From Tubulanus polymorphus (taxonomy: Eukaryota; Nemertea; Palaeonemertea; Tubulaniformes; Tubulanidae), in NCBI RefSeq assembly GCF_964204645.1, contig NC_134025.1, positions 10,855,001-10,919,000 of the forward strand: DNA of 64,000 nt, given 5' to 3'. This document shows, piece after piece, positions 7,360 through 51,400 of the stretch. Below the pieces are notes generated by a model. The model was not told where the DNA came from. It searched no databases and worked only from the letters and a program-made list of their open reading frames with translations. The translations under genes and the position numbers were made by a program. Positions within the stretch are counted from its first letter, which is position 1. Every line of letters starts with the position of its first letter.

Positions 7360-8571
7360 TAGTTGTGGATAGCATCAAAAATAATAAGAGACGTTAGCCT
7401 CTAGGCATTTATAATTGCATGGATTCAACATGTTAAGCTGTCTTACGTGTAAATGACACATAGGTCAAGAGTTATGAAAAAATATCAAATTTCCGCCTTT
7501 CGATGATACATATAAATAGGCACAAATAGCATAATTTAATGGGTCGAGTCCTCTGAATGACACTTTCAAAACAAGTCTTTAAAACATATGTTATGAAAAT
7601 GCATGTAATGAGTTATGCGGGTACTAATATTCACCGTTGGTTCTGGAAATCTTGATAATGACTTTATTGAAAGCGCGATGAGAAAAATGTTGAATTTCTG
7701 TCATCAATGAGCCAATTTTTCAATCGAAATGTCTACTAAGGGTCGAAAAGACCTGAACACAGGATAATAAGAATTTGGCAGAATGTAGGTGAGGTTTTGT
7801 ATGTCTGATGAGCTGGGAATTGTTATCAAACGGCTGAAGGGCAAGTTCAGGTCGCAGATTCATATCAGCATTGCTTTTCTAATTTGAGTTCGATTTCGAT
7901 GGATGAGCATCGATCTTCACCGAACAGATCGCACAATCCTCCGCCAGTTCCTTCAACGACGGCAGGTTTCGGTTTCTTTTGTTTGAACATCACCGGAAGA
8001 TCGACGATATGGACTTCTTTTTTAAACAACTGAGCGACACTCCTCTGCAAAACAAAACAAGTTGTGGATAGCATCAAAAATAATAAGAGACGTTAGCCTC
8101 TAGGCATTTATAATTGCATGGATTCAACATGTTAAGCTGTCTTACGTGTAAATGACACATAGGTCAAGAGTTATGAAAAAATATCAAATTTCCGCCTTTC
8201 GATGATACATATAAATAGGCACAAATAGCATAATTTAATGGGTCGAGTCCTCTGAATGACACTTTCAAAACAAGTCTTTAAAACAGAATGCAGAATGTAG
8301 GTGAGGTTTTGTATGTCTGATGAGCTGGGAATTGTTATCAAACGGCTGAAGGGCAAGTTCAGGTCGCAGATTCATATCAGCATTGCTTTTCTAATTTGAG
8401 TTCGATTTCGATGGATGAGCATCGATCTTCACCGAACAGATCGCACAATCCTCCGCCAGTTCCTTCAACGACGGCAGGTTTCGGTTTCTTTTGTTTGAAC
8501 ATCACCGGAAGATCGACGATATGGACTTCTTTTTTAAACAACTGAGCGACACTCCTCTGCAAAACAAAACA
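7360..8571. repeat. Tandem duplication containing the XPO5 terminal exon
   Basis: Copy A is 7360-8060 and copy B is 8061-8571. Each starts AGTTGTGGATAGCATC and ends CAAAACAAAACAA. The exon part appears identical by eye. Copy B lacks roughly 190 bp that copy A has at about 7585-7777, a stretch that includes a minus-strand AATAAA (TTTATT at 7663-7668). Near-identity implies a recent event. Confidence 0.95.
7865..8044 (-). CDS. XPO5: Distal duplicate of the XPO5 last coding exon
   Basis: This 180-bp exon encodes 59 residues plus stop and matches the exon at 8377-8556. It has its own acceptor (TTTTGCAG), so it could serve as an alternative terminal exon giving the same protein. If splicing uses the proximal copy instead, this copy lies in the 3' UTR, because the nearest minus-strand AATAAA I see is at 7663-7668. 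It is intact, so I do not call it a pseudogene. Confidence 0.85.
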   Translation of the reverse strand, partial: RSVAQLFKKEVHIVDLPVMFKQKKPKPAVVEGTGGGLCDLFGEDRCSSIEIELKLEKQC

Positions 8572-11500
8572 ACACAACGATATTAGAATGTTACATGTAG
8601 CAAAACATCAAGTCGTATTCCATATTGGCAGTTTGTTCACTATGACCTAGTCCTTACCAGAAAACTTTGTTCCATAATTTCTTGAACTTAAAAGTTGACC
8701 CGGCCGGCTGCCTATCTACCCTGTACATTACTTGTTTTAAAAATCATGATCAAGCTAGCCATAACAGACCAGCAGCTTTAGAAATGAACTGATCGCAAAT
8801 CATATGGCAGTTTACAAAAGTGACCCAGCCAATTAGGAGAAACAAGGTATCATTTTATTTCAGCCTTAGATAGATGCAAAAATCATGGATGGAACATGAA
8901 GCAGAGAGTGCATGTTGGCTACTTACCCCTATCACATCGATGATAAGCTTTTTAAATGCATCTTTCTTCCTCTTGTCGGACGCTGGCTTTCCATTTGTGA
9001 GACCCAGTATATTTTCATCGAAATTCTATACGACAAATACATACATTAGTCTTATATCATAATAGTAGTGAAATATATTGTAATGTCTGTGCTCATTATA
9101 TTGACTTTATATAGAGCAATAAACTACATTGAACTAAAAAAAAAATTTAACAAAACATACAGAAAATTGCATTTTATGTGAATCCATTATTGAACAACAC
9201 ATACGGAAAATTGCATTCCACAGTTATAAATCAGTGGCTTGTTACACAGATCAAAATAAGTTTATTGTTAAATTGTGTAGAAATATATGAGTATACAGGT
9301 AGTGGCAATTGGGGGCAGAACCGTAATCATCATGGTGGCAGTGAACATGTTGAGAATAACTTCCACGCTTAAGTTTTTATGTCGTGACAAATCAAGTATT
9401 ACCTGGATCACTTCTGCTGAACAATTTGGTATTGTCATCAAAATGGCAGTCAGTTCACTGTACAATGGCCGCTGCAGAAAACAAAAATCTAATTCGTGAA
9501 ATTAAGTGAACATAATATACATCGATCTATGAAATATTTTATTGAAAAATTTATATATATATATATATATATTGAAAAATTTTAGTGCAGTAATTTGTCA
9601 ATGGTTGAGACGGTTGATATTTGACTTAATTAATCTCCACACAGTGAAAGTGAATTTTCATATCATTAGTGATGACTGTTCAACAAAGCAGACAATACAA
9701 CAGTTACCGTAGATGAGAGTTTCATTGAGAGAACTTACCAAAGTGCTATACACAAGACATGCTAATCCGATAAGAGGAGCTTGTGTGCCTTCATGCTCGC
9801 CATGAACTGTGAGTGCATTTAATACCAAGCGGAATAAATGACAAGCTGCCTCAACTGTGACCAGATTTTCAGCTACAAGCTAGAATAATAACACAGAATA
9901 TACCAAATTCATCATTAATTGTGGAATATATAGTAGAATATGCTTACGGTAATTCGGGATTATTTGGGACCGATGCAATTAATCCTGTTTATGAGAAATC
10001 ATATTTCACATTTATGTACAAGTATATTATAAATATTATCTAGATCAGAAAAATGATCTGAACTTAGCGGGTTTGACGGCTTCCTCGTGGAACAGCTCAC
10101 TCTGCTGAGCTCCTCGACAGATTTGTATCGACAAAACTTTTTTTCAGTACTAGCCAAGAATAGGGTTCATAGTTAATAAATCGTGGCCTAATGAATGAAC
10201 CAATCACATCGGTCCAGGGGCGGATCTAGGAAAATTGAAAGGCAGGGGTCCCGAAGACGAGAAAAGCTTTTTTTAGATTAAGCAGCGATGACAATGTCAG
10301 GTCCCAACCTCGGTATTAGATATTTTTGAAGAAATACGTCCTAAAAGATGCAAATTTTGATAGGATGAGTGTGAAATTTGAAGGTTTTAACTATCTCTGC
10401 CTCGTAGAAAAGGGCAACCACAATGGGAAGGTTAGGGCTCAGATCCCCGAGACCGCCCCCTAAATCTGCCCCTGCGGTCATTTCGTATGTACCTGCAGTA
10501 GTATAGCACCACCTAAGTTTATGCACTTGCGACATGTCGTCGAATCGTTCCATGTCAAACCAGTGAATACCGTCAGCACCATATATTGACAAGTAGCCTG
10601 AAATGAGTGGATTAAAAACGAATCAACACAAACAAACAATATCAAAATAATCTTCTTTGATTAGTTTGGTATGGGAAACGAAGTAATGCAATGTATTTAT
10701 TATTTATCAATGTATTTTATTGCAATGTATTTAATGCAGTATCATTATTACTGGTACCTCATTTTGAATAGCCATTATTCCTAATTCGCTGATAGTTGAA
10801 TCTTCTTTCACACTCATTTTACAATCATTTTCGAGATTATTTTCTACAACAGCGCCGGAATTCTGGCTTCTACAAACAAATCCTGCAAATTAAAGAAATA
10901 ACCGATTCTGTTGTTATTATGCGAAAAACGAACTTCGATAAAAATGAGTAAATTCTCCCATTTCAGTTTTACCTAAAATATCTAGATATTCCCGAGTTAG
11001 CTGTCTGCAAAGCTGGTCTTCGAGAACTTCTTGGGATTCTGGATTTGTGTCATCTTCTGAGAGAAGTCTAAAATACACAGACTATAAATATAGCTTTTTT
11101 TCTACTCATCAATTTCGAAATATTTTTTTGATATGCTGGATATCCTGGAATGAGTTTGCAATTCCTCAATCCCAAGAAATCTCCGTTGGAGGAAAGTACA
11201 TGTGCATATGAATATCTTTGCAGCATGACTTCAGTGAAAAGTGACAGTGAAAATATCAATTGTTGATAGGTATGGTCCAAACTACGGATGCATAAACCTT
11301 CCTAGGAAGACTAGGAAACAAGAACAGGGTTATCCACATATTACACAGATAACCAGTAAATGTACCATACTGGGTTTTCTTAGGAATTACATTATCAATT
11401 ATTTATGCTGTAAATGTTTTTACCCATCTTGATATCTTTGATGAATAAGCACCCACTTTGCTTCTAAGCGCTGAAATGTAATAAACATCAGATGAAACAT

Positions 11501-14500
11501 ATGCTATGTATCAGTTATCAATTCAAACAGGAAAAGCGACCAGAGAATTTTGTATTATTGCTTCAAATCAGTATTTTCAAATGTCATTTAATGGGAACTG
11601 CAAATAAACGTGTGACAACAAATCTTTTATTTTCAAATGGTTAAAGAAATACTAATACAAGTCATAAATCATTTTAACTGTGGGATCCTTTCGACTCATT
11701 TTACAAAGTTAGTGGTGAAATTTGATGATTACATAGTTGAATTGCCCGAGAAATTGGACCTACGTACCTTGAACATGAACGGACAAAGGAAACCAAGAAT
11801 CGGTAAGATTAGACTGTTATAGGACTCTTTAAGACACTGTTGTATGAATGGTTTAAGAAATGAACGTTTCCGGAATTAAGGAAAAGGAACTTCTTAAGGC
11901 AGCATAAAATAATGAAAATTTCTACGTGGTTACGTGAACAATGCTGGACTTCAACTCGATGAACTGACTAAAAGCTGGCAAATACAGGGACTCCACCTAA
12001 ACCAATACAGTTGGGACTTTCATTTTTGCACTGAATTAGGCAGTTACTGGTATTTTGATTTTACCGAATTGAACGGATTACCTGATAGACCGGTACCGGT
12101 TTGGGCAGTGTCTACTGTACTAGTGAAGAGAAAAATTGTAATAAGGAAGATGCAGTTTATTGTCCTATTCCTATTGTATAGGGTGCTGGAAGCATTGTGA
12201 CCACATACATTTGGAGGCAAAACACTTAGTTAAATTGCAATGCTCTTCCATGAGTAGATTTTCTTACATATCATATGTTACAATACTGTCTGCAGATGTT
12301 TTGAACACATTTACATGTATAGGGTTTAACCCTTTCAGTGCATCTACACCGCAGTGAGGTGTATAAATAAGTGATAGATTTTGCTAGTACACCGCACTAT
12401 GGTGTATTGATGTAATTAGTAATTATCTCTCTTGAAAAATGGCAGCACCTGTCAAACATAGTGAAATATTAGTAACTAACGATACACCGCACCGCGGTGT
12501 AGACGCACTATAGTGGTATGTGTGTTATTAAACACACTAGGGTGGAAGTTTTAAAAATTTTAGAATTATCTCCAGCACTATAGGGTATTAATTAGTCACT
12601 GAAAGGGTTAATATGATAAATGCATGCACCATATTCCGTCATAAAAGGATATGAATAATTGATCGCAGACTGTAATCTGGAATCGCATGGAGATTCGTGA
12701 AAACTGATTCTAAGAGCAGATTGGCTAGTCCGGGAGCCATGTAAAATTCAGCACCAAGGCATAAACCAGCGTTGCCAAGAATGTGATAGCTGTAAAACAA
12801 AATCCAACATTACTCAGTTTTTTCACATTGGTGAAGGTATACTCCTGGCCCAAACAGTGGTTTTCACTTCGACAAAGCCAAAAATAGTAAATATTACCAA
12901 GAATCGTAAGAGAGGTGAATATATGCTTGCATTCTTTCTTGAGGTTTTTTCATCATGAGGCAATCTGCATTGTCGACGCTAGGTGGTTGGATACCTAAGA
13001 GAGATATGAGTAACGTGCATTTAAGGACCATAAACAAAGTTTTCATGATGAATATTCTTAGGCTAGGGGCACACGAGCGTATTTTTTTGCCCGATCGTGG
13101 CGATGTAAATCACGGGGACAGCGATTGAGTCGGCAGGCGATTTAACATGTTTGATATTTTCGCCCGATTATTTACGCCGGCGAGCGGATCGCCCGCAAAT
13201 TAACACGTCTGCCCGCACAATACGCTCGTGCGCCCCTAGCTTTAGCCAACGCTTTCTATGTCAGTAACCTATTCTTGACTACTCCAGTAGGCAGCATCAT
13301 CCATGTTTTTTTAAGATAATAATTGTCTCAGAGCATATAGAATATGGCTAATGATATGAACATAGTAAGATGAACATATCACGTGAAAGACAAATCATAG
13401 ATTTTCAGACCTAGAACTGCAAGTTTCTCCCTCTCTTCAAGATTCATTGCCTCTGAGAATGCTGGATGAAGTTTCGCTTTATTTTCTGGAAGCCACATCT
13501 CATTCATTATTCTGAAAGACGGATAGTGAATAGGTTTTAACTAGTTAATCCATTTAAAAAAAAAAAGTTCATTTGGTTTTTCTTTTAATGCCAGGAATGA
13601 AGAGGCTGCTAGATCCAGCTATGCCCTAACAACTAGGTGTACAAATGTACAGTATTCCTCACTTTCCTCTAGTAGACCTTATATTCTCAGTCTGATTATT
13701 TGACCCTACAAAAGACATCAACTCCAATGTTCCTACATACCTCAGCAGTGGAAATAAGTTACTCAGCATCAAACTGATGTGTTGAGTTGCTGGATTGCGT
13801 AATAGACCATTTTCTCCGATGAAACATCCTTGTTTAGCATCCTGCATGATATAACAACCGAAAGAAATCCATGTACCGGTATGCTACATGGTGCCGATTA
13901 TGATTGTAAACTTTTTTTCCAAACGAAAATCATTAGGAGTGTACCTCTATATCATCTGGCCATTTGCTTCTTTTGATTGCGGCTAATACTAGATTCAAAC
14001 AATAGGTCACCTGAAATAGAAATGTAAAGATTGATTGATACCAAACTTGAAATTGGCCACATGAAATTGACAGACACAAACAAGAATTACAGAAATCGAA
14101 AAAGGCACCTGTGATCTGTTAATACCACATACATCAGCTGAACTAGGCTCGACGGGTGGTTGATTTAATCCTATGTACGTCAGATAGTTATCTGTGCTTG
14201 AAAGAGCCCTGAAATCGATGGTTACATCAATATATGGAATTAAAAGAATAACCAATTTTATTCTAAATAAGAATAAGGCTCAGATGTAAATACATCAAAA
14301 CCCAGACATACTAATGGGCCTGCTCTCTATACCAAGGGATTTTTATGTTAGAACACAAGTAGGCCTACACATCGTGAAGAAATGAGTATGGATGAAAGAA
14401 GTCCCATTTCAAATTAATTTTCAATGATTTTCAGAACAAATAAGGTCTTAAAAAGTGCAGAAACCAAAAATTTTGGTGAAGGTTTGCATCTTCTCTTAAC

Positions 14501-28425: not shown

Positions 28426-29569
28426 AGAATGCCACTATTGTTTTTAACAGATTTATGAAAGGTTCTTGGACAGTTTATTGGTCGAGGACGGACAAGTCAA
28501 AGACATCTAAACACGAATACCTTTATCTAAAAACATTATAGACAATTGTTTATCGGCCAAATGTTTAACAGATTCAGCAGTCTGTTGGCAGGATTTAAGA
28601 CTCGTTCCACAATCAAATGGAGGGTATAAAGGGTATAACAACATGGTCAATTTAACAGTCATGTACATGTATTAAAAGCAATGAGACAATAGAAACACAG
28701 TACATTATGTACATGTAATCAAAATCTTATTTAGTTCTTTAATACTGGATATTGAAAATGAGAACTGTTTTCGTTCGTTCCTCAAACTGGCCCCCATTCA
28801 TTATTGTTAGCAACCTCACGATACCACAAAATTTCTTTTTTTGTCGGTTTGCTTAACATAACAGTCACTCCAAAGCAAGTATTATTGAAGATATCCTTGC
28901 AAATTTCAGTATCAAAGACAGACCAGTCATTCATAAAATATGTATGCAAGGTGCAAGTGAGAGAGGGTTAAATTTTCATAACCATTCCATCCTAGGCCTT
29001 TGTTTAATTACTCGGAATATGGATTTGTCGAAAATATCCTTTTTGTCAATCTTAATTTATCATTAGAATTCAATTTAACATAATTTTCACTGACTTTTTT
29101 TCACAAGGATTTTTTTTCCGCAGCCATTCCAAAATTTAATGTGGAATATATATTATCATGATTGAAAAATTTTCAATGTATTTCTCATTTTTTTCGCTGT
29201 ACCCTTTCATTTCAAATCATTAAAAAAATCTAATATCGAGCAAATTCTGCAAATAAAGTTGTGATTTTTTTCTCCTGAAAAATACATATTCAAAGCAGAA
29301 AAAAAGGCTTTACAATACTTATACCGGTAATTACAAAAAAGAAGCGGCTTACTTCATGAAAGATGGGAATCTTTTTTGAAAACATGATCAAAACAGCACA
29401 CAGCATTTGCTGGCAAATCAACAACTCAGAGATGATTAAATAAAATGTACACGAAAACAGTCTCTGAACCGGTCATTGCTGCGCCATTTCATTCCTTAAA
29501 AAAAATGCTCTAAAATAAATTATCGTCCCTACTATATACCGTAATAGATTATACTTATTTCCTGATCAC

Positions 29570-43628: not shown

Positions 43629-45484
43629 ATGTGGCGTCCTCTAACCGGGTTGGTTTCGTCTTCTTACCGATCATCAAGTACGGCACCCTTTTCTCACGCT
43701 GTCTTATCGTAAGTCTCAATCGTGTATGCCTATATATATGTATAAATATATCCAACGTTTATGTTCAGTGATTTAATCCAGTCATCTTGTGCTGAAAATG
43801 ATAATTATCAAAAGCTAGTTTAAATAACTGTTGAACTGTTCAGGCCTACCTGAGTTCAGATATTCGTTGCCATAGATTGAGATATTTTTGGTGTCACTCT
43901 TATCGGATACATGCATGTTGCTTAAAAGCTATCAATTTCAAAGCTATTAAAATGAACCAATGATGCAAACGCTACCCAACTTTTGAGTTGACGTGTCTCA
44001 GTCCAAACTAAATAAGTCATGACTTTTAAAACTGTAGACTTACTTTTCAAGGTAGAGTTTAAAATCATTGCTTGAACATGAGATATATCACGCCTACTGT
44101 GAGAGAGATAGACAAGTGGCAGAGATTAAGGGGGTTTCCACCCTCTTTTAAAAGGCACCCTCAAATTTTCAATAATTCCGAAGGTCTCACTCAAAAAATT
44201 CCTGATTTTCGCCTATGCTTCTCTCCAGAAGCCTGATCCTGGGATTTATAGACCTACTTCATTGTTTAGTGCAGGGATTTGTGCCTTTGGCACATGTAAA
44301 TTCTGTCAATTCAATTAGGCTACCTATTTGGATTCCCCTTAGTAGATCTACTATTGACAAATTGCTAATAGGTCTACATACATAACCATACAATAACAAA
44401 TAGACAAATTAAACCGAAAGATAAGCATCATGAAAAAAAACTTGGTTCAAACTTTAAACATGAATCAAAGAGACTCCTTAGGCTTTAGTTTGAGATTATC
44501 ATGCGGCTTAAATACTGGTCCAACATACTTATCACATAGTTCGATTAAAATTAATGGAAAAATTAATCAAAACTGCGCCTTGTAGTGCAATTCAATAAAA
44601 AAGGTAAAAGGCTGGTGTAGCTGCAGCTAGTTAGTTGTCTCAAACCTCACCCAAAAAACCATTTCACTAAAACTTTTATCCGTAAAAAGGCCTAGGTCGT
44701 CTAAATATATCCAAAAATAAGAAATAAGGAAATTCAAACTATTTTGTCGAATCCGAAATAACTCGTCAAATCATGATTCAAATTGTTGAAGGTTAAACAT
44801 GGGAATATGCTTACGGTGTGGGCTACGGGCACGGTATGTTCTCCATCGCTATCGGGATATCATCGTATCTGTGTGCTCGAATATTTACTTCCTTGAAATT
44901 ACGACAAACACAAATGGAATGCTAACCATCCAGAAACCATCTCCAAAACGCTCGCGAAACACAGCATGATCGACTGTAGATGCCGCCTTAAGCACACCAC
45001 ACATGGCGTCGACAACTCTGTACGCCTCATTTGGCACCGCAAAGCGCAAACTATCTGATATCTAAACTCTGCTATAGCGAACAAAATACTGAATCTTATT
45101 TCTTCCTTCTACTTAATCCATTTCTTCGTCATAGATTCTTTGAACTATTAAATCGAGAAAAGTGACGTTGCAACCACTTTTACCTTTTTGATTTTTGGAA
45201 TTTTTTTCAATAAAAAATATTTCTAATTAACGTTAGACTTTTATATTTGATTATAAAATATTGGTCTTAAATTCCTTGTGAACTACGAATCGAATTATTT
45301 AAGATTATCAAAATTGTGTCGTGAGTTTACAGATTCTAAAATATTTCGTTACATCGGGCGATAAACAAATTTATTTCGCGCTCGATTCGAAGTTCATTTT
45401 TTGACAAGTGGAAATAGAAACCAAGTATTACTGCTGTCCCCAGAGATATATATCGTTGGATTCCTTAATCAAATTGTGTTCGAA
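43629..45484. promoter_or_regulatory. Divergent upstream region of LATS and CEP85
   Basis: The start codons are 1.86 kb apart and point away from each other. The interval should hold both 5' UTRs and promoters; no specific element stands out. AATAAA-like AT-rich blocks and short chance ORFs only. Confidence 0.5.
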
Positions 45485-48400: not shown

Positions 48401-51400
48401 GAATATTTTCTATATTCATTAGGCCTACATTCTAGTCAAATGTAACAATTTATACAATTGATTGAACACTATATCCATGTTGAAGTTAAGTAGAGAGAAT
48501 TCCACAATAATAATGGAAAAACTAAGTCCAAAAATTAACTGAAGCTAGTAGTTTATTCAACGTTTCGACTAGCCTATATCCTAATAGTAATCTTCAGGAA
48601 TAAAGGATAATAATTTACTCCTGAAGATGACTATTAGGATATAGTCGAAACGTTGAATAAACTACTAGCTTCAGTTACATTTTTGGATTTAGTTTTTCCG
48701 TTATTATTGTGGGATTCTCTCTACGTAACTTTTTTTTTTTGTTATACTTTTTTAGGGCTGCTGAATACGAATTCCAACAATTGGTCGCTGAACTGCAACA
48801 AAAGGAGATCATTCCCAAAACAGATTGGAAAAAATTACAAGATGAGGTAGGCCCAATTAATGAGTTATTGAATTCAGATTTAGTCGGATTTTTAATCAAC
48901 TTGCGACATAGCCCCGGTGAACTATTGATTCACTTTTCATCCATAGTCCATAGGTGGAATTAAGTACCAGGTAATGCAGAGTGTACTGAACAGCCTAACA
49001 TGATGTCTTTTCACGCAGGTGGATGAAAGAGACAAGAAGATTAAGGATATGAAAGAGAGACACGATGAGCTTTTCGATGAACTGACACACAAGAAAGAGA
49101 AGTTAGCCGGCTTGGAGCGTTATGTTGCCGATTTGCCAACACAAGATGATCACAACAAAAAAGAGCAACAAATATCCTTTTTCTGAAAAAGTATTGTTTC
49201 GAAACAATGTTTTCTGAATGTCCCAGCTGAATTTCAAATATAGCTCAAAGTCAAATAGCCAATTGAATCCTAAATGCATGATAAAGATTAAAGATTTACA
49301 GATAATTTTGGAAACACATTTCATACAAAAAACATGCAGGTACCAATACATGTACTTAGAATACGATTACTCGCGGTGACTTCATTTTCAGTGTAAAGGT
49401 CTTAATTGGATGAAACCCACTTATTTTAATGATTAGTTCATCGACCACAAGAGGCTTGGCTGTATATATTTTTTACTTACGGGTAAATTTGTCAGAAAAA
49501 TAACACTAATACTTCTCACTCGAATCCAATGGTCGCTGGCCCTTCTGAGATATACGTTATTTCCTTAATGCGCCGTTTACTTGAAATTATTAAGAGAAAG
49601 CGAGATCATACTGAAAAGTCGAATCTCTGATATGGAATCTTCATTGGTTGAAAAGCAGACGGTTATCGAAAACAGAGATAAAACGATTAAATCGTATGAA
49701 AATCAAGTCGATGATTTGAAAACTAAGGTATGATAGTCAGCGTTGGTTTGGATTCAATTTCTTGGATCTATGATTTCTAATCCTTATACGAAAAAAAATT
49801 GATTTTTCTCTCTGTTCTGTTAGATTACCGGGCTGGAGATAGATTTACAACGATTTCAACAACCCGATAAAAATGGCCAATTGTTGGCTAGCAAAAACAA
49901 GGATATTGATGACCTCAGGTGGGAAAATCAGAAACTACACGCAGATTTTGACAAAATGAAAAAGGTATGTATCGATTTATGGACGAATCAACACAATCCA
50001 AAGAGGGGGTGGAGTTTGGCTCCAAAATGGCAAAAATGGAATGAAATCTTTAATTTGTATGTACTTAATGCTGTATTGTGATTTATTCTTTCACTTTACG
50101 TCAGTTTATGGAGGCAAGAAATAAAAAGTTTCAACAAGTCGAAGCAAAAATGCAAGCGCAGATCAAACAATATGAAGAGCAGACCGTTGCTGATGAGAAC
50201 ACCGTGAATACCCTGCAGCTTGACTTAGTTAGTAAAGAAAATGAAATACGCGAACTAAGGCAAGCGATGAAACAGGTAATTGTTGGGATAATTTTTGATG
50301 GACATTCGCCGAAGCCTATTTTATCATCGGTTGCATTTTTTAGCCCACTTGGGACTTTAGTCCCAGCGGGCTATTGCGTTCACTTTTCGTCCGTCCGTCC
50401 GTCCGTAGACGGAATCCAGTTATGTTGGGAAGTTTTGAAGACGCTTCAAGATAATGTCTTGATATTTGGGTTACACATGTATCTACCCTAGACACATCTT
50501 CAGCCCAAAAACTGGCCCTGTCAGATTCAAGATGGCCGACTGGCAGCCATTGTTGTTCGCCAAAATCAGCACTTTTTACACATTTTTGAACTTTTTGAAG
50601 GAAATTTTGAAGACGCTTTGATCAATTACCTTGATCTTTCGGATATATGTGAATTCCCCCAGGGCCCATCAGCATAACAAAAATTGGGTCGATCGGACTC
50701 AAGATGGCCGTCCTATGACCTTTTTAGTGCCCAAAAATGTTAATTTTGGTCCAAATTCTGAGTTCTGTAGCTTCCTACTGGTTTATCATCTCTCATTGCA
50801 ATTTGTGATGGGTATTCTTTGGAAAGGGATGTTTTATACCTGAGACAGGTATTTTTCATCAGCCAATTATGACGCAATTGGCGGCTATCTTGGTGTCAGC
50901 AGTACTCATTCATAAGTGGGAAAAATTTTTTCCACATTATATTGATACCTAAGCGTATTTTGTTACCACAATCAATTAGAAAGTTGTAGCTCATAACGTG
51001 TTCTATGATTGTGGTGAGTTTCAAGGTCATTGGTTTTTGTATATGGCCACCAGGGGGCGTTGAATAATGCAATATCTTAGTATTTCTATATTATATTCGT
51101 ATCAATGCATATTTTGTAACCACAATCAATTGCAAAGTTGCAGCTCATGACATCATCTATGATCGTGGCAAGTTTTAAGGCCATTAGTTATTCTATATGG
51201 TCACCAGGGGGCGTTGAAAAGTAGAATAACTTAATATTTCCTTATTATATTGGTACGTAGGCATATTTTGTTACCATGATCAATTACAAAGTTATAGTTC
51301 GTGACATGTTCTATGATTGTGGTGAGTTTCAAGGCGATTGGGTTTTGAATATGGTCACCAGGGGGCGTTGAATAGTATAATAACTTAGTATTTCCATATT

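Follow-up and report, generated by a model that had tools for sequence, protein, structure and literature searches.

What kind of intron interrupts the exportin-5 gene (XPO5) of this locus between an AT and an AC, and does a second AT-AC intron in the nearby CEP85 gene make the pair more than a coincidence? Both introns lie in the 64-kb stretch of DNA that was analyzed as a whole (the window), and XPO5 and CEP85 are the genes, of the four that the first-pass annotation counted as well resolved, whose identities were examined. We address the splice sites and the protein junction of the XPO5 intron first, then the splicing machinery encoded in the same genome, the place of the intron among nuclear transport genes, and the pairing with CEP85.

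Splice sites and protein junction of the XPO5 intron

The U12-type AT-AC intron of XPO5 spans 11866..12652 on the minus strand, where it is read from 12652 to 11866, and is 787 nt long and in phase 1. It starts with the 5' splice site ATATCCTTTT (12643..12652), whose exact 9-mer ATATCCTTT (12652..12644) occurs three times in the window, and it ends in TTCCTTAATTCCGGAAAC. The branch site TTCCTTAAT (11875..11883) is close to TTCCTTRAY and differs by one base from the branch-site consensus TTCCTTAAC. The AC of the 3' splice site (11866..11867) makes up the final two of the 9 nt that follow the branch 9-mer, and the branch A at 11876 falls 10 nt before the intron end; in U12-type introns the distance from the branch A to the 3' splice site is about 10–15 nt. 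Using an approximate consensus score built for this analysis, we find that both the highest U12 donor score and the highest branch-plus-acceptor score of the minus strand across the 64 kb belong to this intron. On the plus strand, the CEP85 donor ties with a site at 29034, and the CEP85 branch ranks second.

The upstream exon (12653..12789, minus strand) encodes YHILGNAG...LRSII and the first base of an Arg codon, and the downstream exon (11768..11865, minus strand) continues with (R)SFLKPF...FMFK before reaching a GTACGT donor. Joining the two at ...CGATCAATTATTC|GTTCATTTCTT... gives LRSII-R-SFLKPF, and the intron divides the codon of the central R as C|GT. The 78 residues of the joined exons align without gaps to residues 848-923 of human exportin-5 (3a6p; E 3.4e-15) and match the Pfam family Exportin-5 with 49.6 bits against a cut-off of 27. 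A wider set of translated exons retrieves the same human protein (E 9.6e-42), and the exons around the intron are collinear with human XPO5 715-974. Because the ungapped match, the Pfam match, and the wider match all point to exportin-5, the gene identity and the exon junction can be called firm at the level of sequence, and the firm evidence for the intron itself is the protein junction taken together with the donor. The first-pass annotation had placed an AT-AC intron in XPO5 at this position; its coordinates, donor, branch, and acceptor all stand.

Retention of the intron would introduce an in-frame stop (18 stops are found in the read-through frame), and 787 nt is not divisible by 3. One in-frame TGA lies at intron nucleotides 12-14, and the branch site, shortly before the acceptor, itself contains an in-frame TAA. 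These stops bear on the possibility that U2-type GT-AG (or GC-AG) sites nearby are used and that the AT-AC ends are coincidental. A search over a donor range reaching 20 nt into the upstream exon on one side and 120 nt into the intron on the other, and over an acceptor range that opens 150 nt ahead of the downstream exon and closes at its end, gave 10 in-frame, stop-free GT/GC-AG combinations around the interval. However, each of them removes 19 to 51 residues, among them ungapped exportin-5 positions, and the TGA and TAA exclude any nearby alternative within the intron. We give the use of such sites next to no probability.

AT-AC ends by themselves are not proof of U12 dependence, as discussed in passages of PMC2831892, and AT-AC introns spliced by the U2 machinery are described there and in the main text of PMC8280824. 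The XPO5 intron might in principle be processed by the major (U2) spliceosome in the same manner as some sodium-channel introns. In the sodium-channel cases covered in PMC2831892 the +5 position is G, whereas in the XPO5 intron it is C, and the U12 branch is properly spaced. As this +5 C is part of a complete U12 donor, we consider splicing of the AT-AC intron by the U2 machinery unlikely and would assign it scarcely any probability.

We note that the intron also contains a palindromic element of ∼286 bp (12326..12611), with TTAACCCTTTCAGTG ends and flanking TTAA, that begins 31 nt past the donor 10-mer and that we take to be a piggyBac-like MITE. At least 39 other near-full copies with 90–92% identity were found among the best 40 of 3008 candidates scored. 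Subtracting the element leaves an intron of about 500 nt.

Minor-spliceosome components and proposed splicing

The genome (267.8 Mb, 77 contigs) was scanned for the U11, U12, U4atac, and U6atac genes, which the first-pass annotation had named as a check on its reading, and all four are present over their Rfam cut-offs. The counts are lower bounds from the best candidates scored, and the matches were re-scanned: at least one match for U11 (98.1 bits), at least one for U12 (111.8 bits), at least one for U4atac (contig C6, 73 bits), and at least three for U6atac (96.5, 93.5, and 40.5 bits). The weakest U6atac match (C8:15260197-15260307) has altered ends and is possibly a pseudogene or degenerate copy. 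An Rfam scan of the window itself returned no families over cut-off. For CENATAC/CCDC84 (PF14968), one exon match was obtained (38.8 bits, cut-off 25.3); it spans positions 1-43 of the 330-position profile. The U11 sequence UAAAAGGG can pair with UCCUUUUA with one wobble, and the U12 sequence UAAGGAAAA can pair with UUUUCCUUA. The U6atac segment AAAAGGA is complementary to UCCUUUU in the canonical register, as read by eye; the longest scripted duplex is in another register.

In the standard mechanism of minor splicing, U11 is followed by U6atac at the donor, U12 pairs at the branch, U4atac/U6atac provides the catalytic RNA, and CENATAC serves A-type introns. Applied to XPO5, U11 and then U6atac would pair with AUAUCCUUUU of the intron, and U12 would pair with UUCCUUA such that an A is left over as the branch nucleophile. 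U4atac/U6atac would bring in the catalytic RNA, CENATAC would promote the A-type subtype, and the exons would be joined inside the Arg codon. In human cells, CENATAC favors AT-AN minor introns, according to the main text of PMC8280824.

From the observed splice sites, protein junction, four snRNA genes, and partial CENATAC match we infer both the splicing of this interval and its mechanism, and we hold it to be almost certain that 12652..11866 is a conventional U12-type AT-AC (A-type) intron of exportin-5. It resembles animal U12-type AT-AC introns in its donor, branch, spacing, and AC end and in the presence of the snRNAs in the genome, and its phase 1 is the commonest phase of minor introns in the main text of PMC10639083. 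We see no substantial difference between the XPO5 intron and that class.

Nuclear transport genes

IPO5 and XPO5 are, we assume, members of the same superfamily. Human IPO5 intron 21 is presented in the main text of PMC8280824 as a CENATAC-sensitive U12-type AT-AC intron, and it is like the XPO5 intron in being an AT-AC minor intron of a nuclear transport receptor; the gene differs, and the likeness is one of class. In the genome analyzed here, exportin-4 also appears, judging from its exons, to hold an AT-AC intron (C1:8016989-8017069, 81 nt), with the donor 10-mer and the branch TTCCTTAAT of the XPO5 intron. Its flanking exons are collinear with exportin-4 (E 1.7e-49 with neighboring exons, 0.013 for the two exons alone), and the junction falls in an 18-residue stretch unaligned to the solved XPO4 chain. 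The exportin-4 intron lies near residue 240 of that chain and the XPO5 intron near residue ∼893 of human XPO5, so that the positions are not obviously homologous. The AT-AC introns of the two exportins agree with the report in PMC8280824 that AT-AN minor introns are enriched among nucleocytoplasmic-transport genes.

A search of paper listings and main-text passages on minor introns found neither XPO5 nor the exportins named as minor-intron genes. The term "XPO5" was not found in the main text of PMC10639083, nor "XPO" in that of PMC8280824, and the passages of PMC11460701 that deal with XPO5 discuss the protein. The literature searched likewise yielded no statement on a minor intron of the same position or class in XPO5 of other animals. 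We regard the XPO5 intron as a newly found and solid case of a familiar intron type and not as a surprise, and we do not claim a first report. With it, exportin-5 joins the genes with a well-supported AT-AC minor intron, alongside the one that exportin-4 of the same genome appears to hold, and the AT-AN enrichment in transport genes is thereby extended to an animal apparently outside the vertebrates.

A-type introns are reported to be spliced slowly in human cells (PMC8280824, main text), and minor introns can serve as switches when U6atac is limiting, as described in PMC3728624. If the XPO5 intron also splices slowly, XPO5 output could depend on minor-spliceosome levels; that miRNA export is tied to minor-spliceosome activity through this intron is a guess. 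A broader proposal, which we consider unlikely, is that A-type minor introns occur in several karyopherins of this lineage, exportin-4 and exportin-5 at a minimum, and that splicing limited by CENATAC/U6atac could tune nuclear export, that of miRNA precursors among it, as a single set.

The CEP85 intron and the expected frequency of such pairs

The second U12-type AT-AC intron of the window, in CEP85, spans 49172..49580 on the plus strand (409 nt, phase 0) and is also sound. The two introns were initially described as closely matching in donor, branch, and acceptor, and this is confirmed: the donor 10-mer and branch 9-mer are common to both, both end in AC, and they lie on opposite strands ∼37 kb (36.5 kb) apart. 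The identity of CEP85 comes from a Pfam CC4_CEP85 match of a wider set of translated pieces (E 3.1e-8); the 100 residues around the intron, searched alone, gave no specific match.

Taken singly, the donor and branch motifs are at chance level in the window, with 29 donor motifs (30.09 expected) and 32 branch motifs with up to one mismatch (32.15 expected). The exact branch 9-mer is present at 45461 as well, and no branch/acceptor partner was found for the third ATATCCTTT donor, at 29034. A strict composite (ATATCCTTT, TTCCTTRAY, 5–12 nt, AC, 60–2000 nt), fixed after the hits were known, occurs twice in the window, exactly at the XPO5 and CEP85 introns; 1000 dinucleotide shuffles of the window gave a mean of 0.02, and two were reached in 1/1000.

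Genome-wide, ATATCCTTTT occurs 1671 times, compared with 1321 for the same pattern read backward. We sampled 97 ATATCCTTTT sites outside the window, among 100 listed and all on C1, and found a strict branch plus AC within 2.34 kb of the donor at 3/97, versus 0/97 for the reverse-complement control and 8/97 for the reversed control. Because the reversed control reaches 8/97, the motif count alone proves nothing. Protein support exists for two of the three strict sites. One is the exportin-4 intron described above. The other lies in a two-pore channel gene, which has an AT-AC intron (C1:9202492 onward, 113 nt) with the same donor and branch and an ungapped junction (E 1e-15). A relaxed NTCCTTRAY+AC partner was seen at 10/97 sites (2/97 reverse-complement, 16/97 reversed), not clearly above controls, and a branch with up to one mismatch at 25/60 of the first sampled donors (control, 24/60). 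One of eight further candidates (L045, 180 nt) has both flanks open and is in phase 1; in the other seven, including the strict L101 (1962 nt), no convincing coding junction was seen. Two other patterns were set aside: an exact composite with a 10–11 nt gap, far too short, gave no match, and a genome-wide count of a short AT-AC pattern gave eight matches (four of them copies of one repeat) versus four in the reversed control, which provides no usable estimate.

Scaling from 2/97 gives ∼34 such introns genome-wide (4–124) and 0.16 pairs within 36.5 kb (0.002–2.1), and including the window gives 67 introns and 0.6 pairs (0.04–4.0), figures that cover perfect donors and branches only, come from part of one contig, and assume uniform placement. 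With intervals reaching 2 to 4 pairs, the first-pass view that two AT-AC introns in the window are notable in themselves goes too far. The accompanying premise that AT-AC introns are a small minority of U12 introns is likewise overstated: Table 2 of PMC7367187 gives their share as 26% in human and 47% in Drosophila, and the main text of PMC8280824 puts it at 24% of minor introns. Because of the human and Drosophila shares, the subtype is not extreme.

The two introns could nevertheless form a physically or functionally linked pair that reflects local clustering. The 36.5-kb spacing and the shuffle mean of 0.02 per window speak for such a link, as does the strict partner at 2/3 ATATCCTTTT sites in the window versus 3/97 elsewhere in the sample. 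However, the window was picked out after the pair was known, the expected numbers of pairs this close are those given above, and the introns lie on opposite strands of unrelated genes in phases 1 and 0. We judge a linked pair to be very unlikely and regard the XPO5/CEP85 pair as two individually sound AT-AC introns whose proximity is mildly unusual at most.

Downstream of CEP85, the ORFs 54457-54627/56025-56219 and 55459-55787/57051-57385 are near-identical at a distance of ∼1.6 kb, which suggests a tandem duplication. Elsewhere in the window, near-identical ORFs at 7704-8092 and 8171-8607, about 0.5 kb apart, suggest a local duplication.
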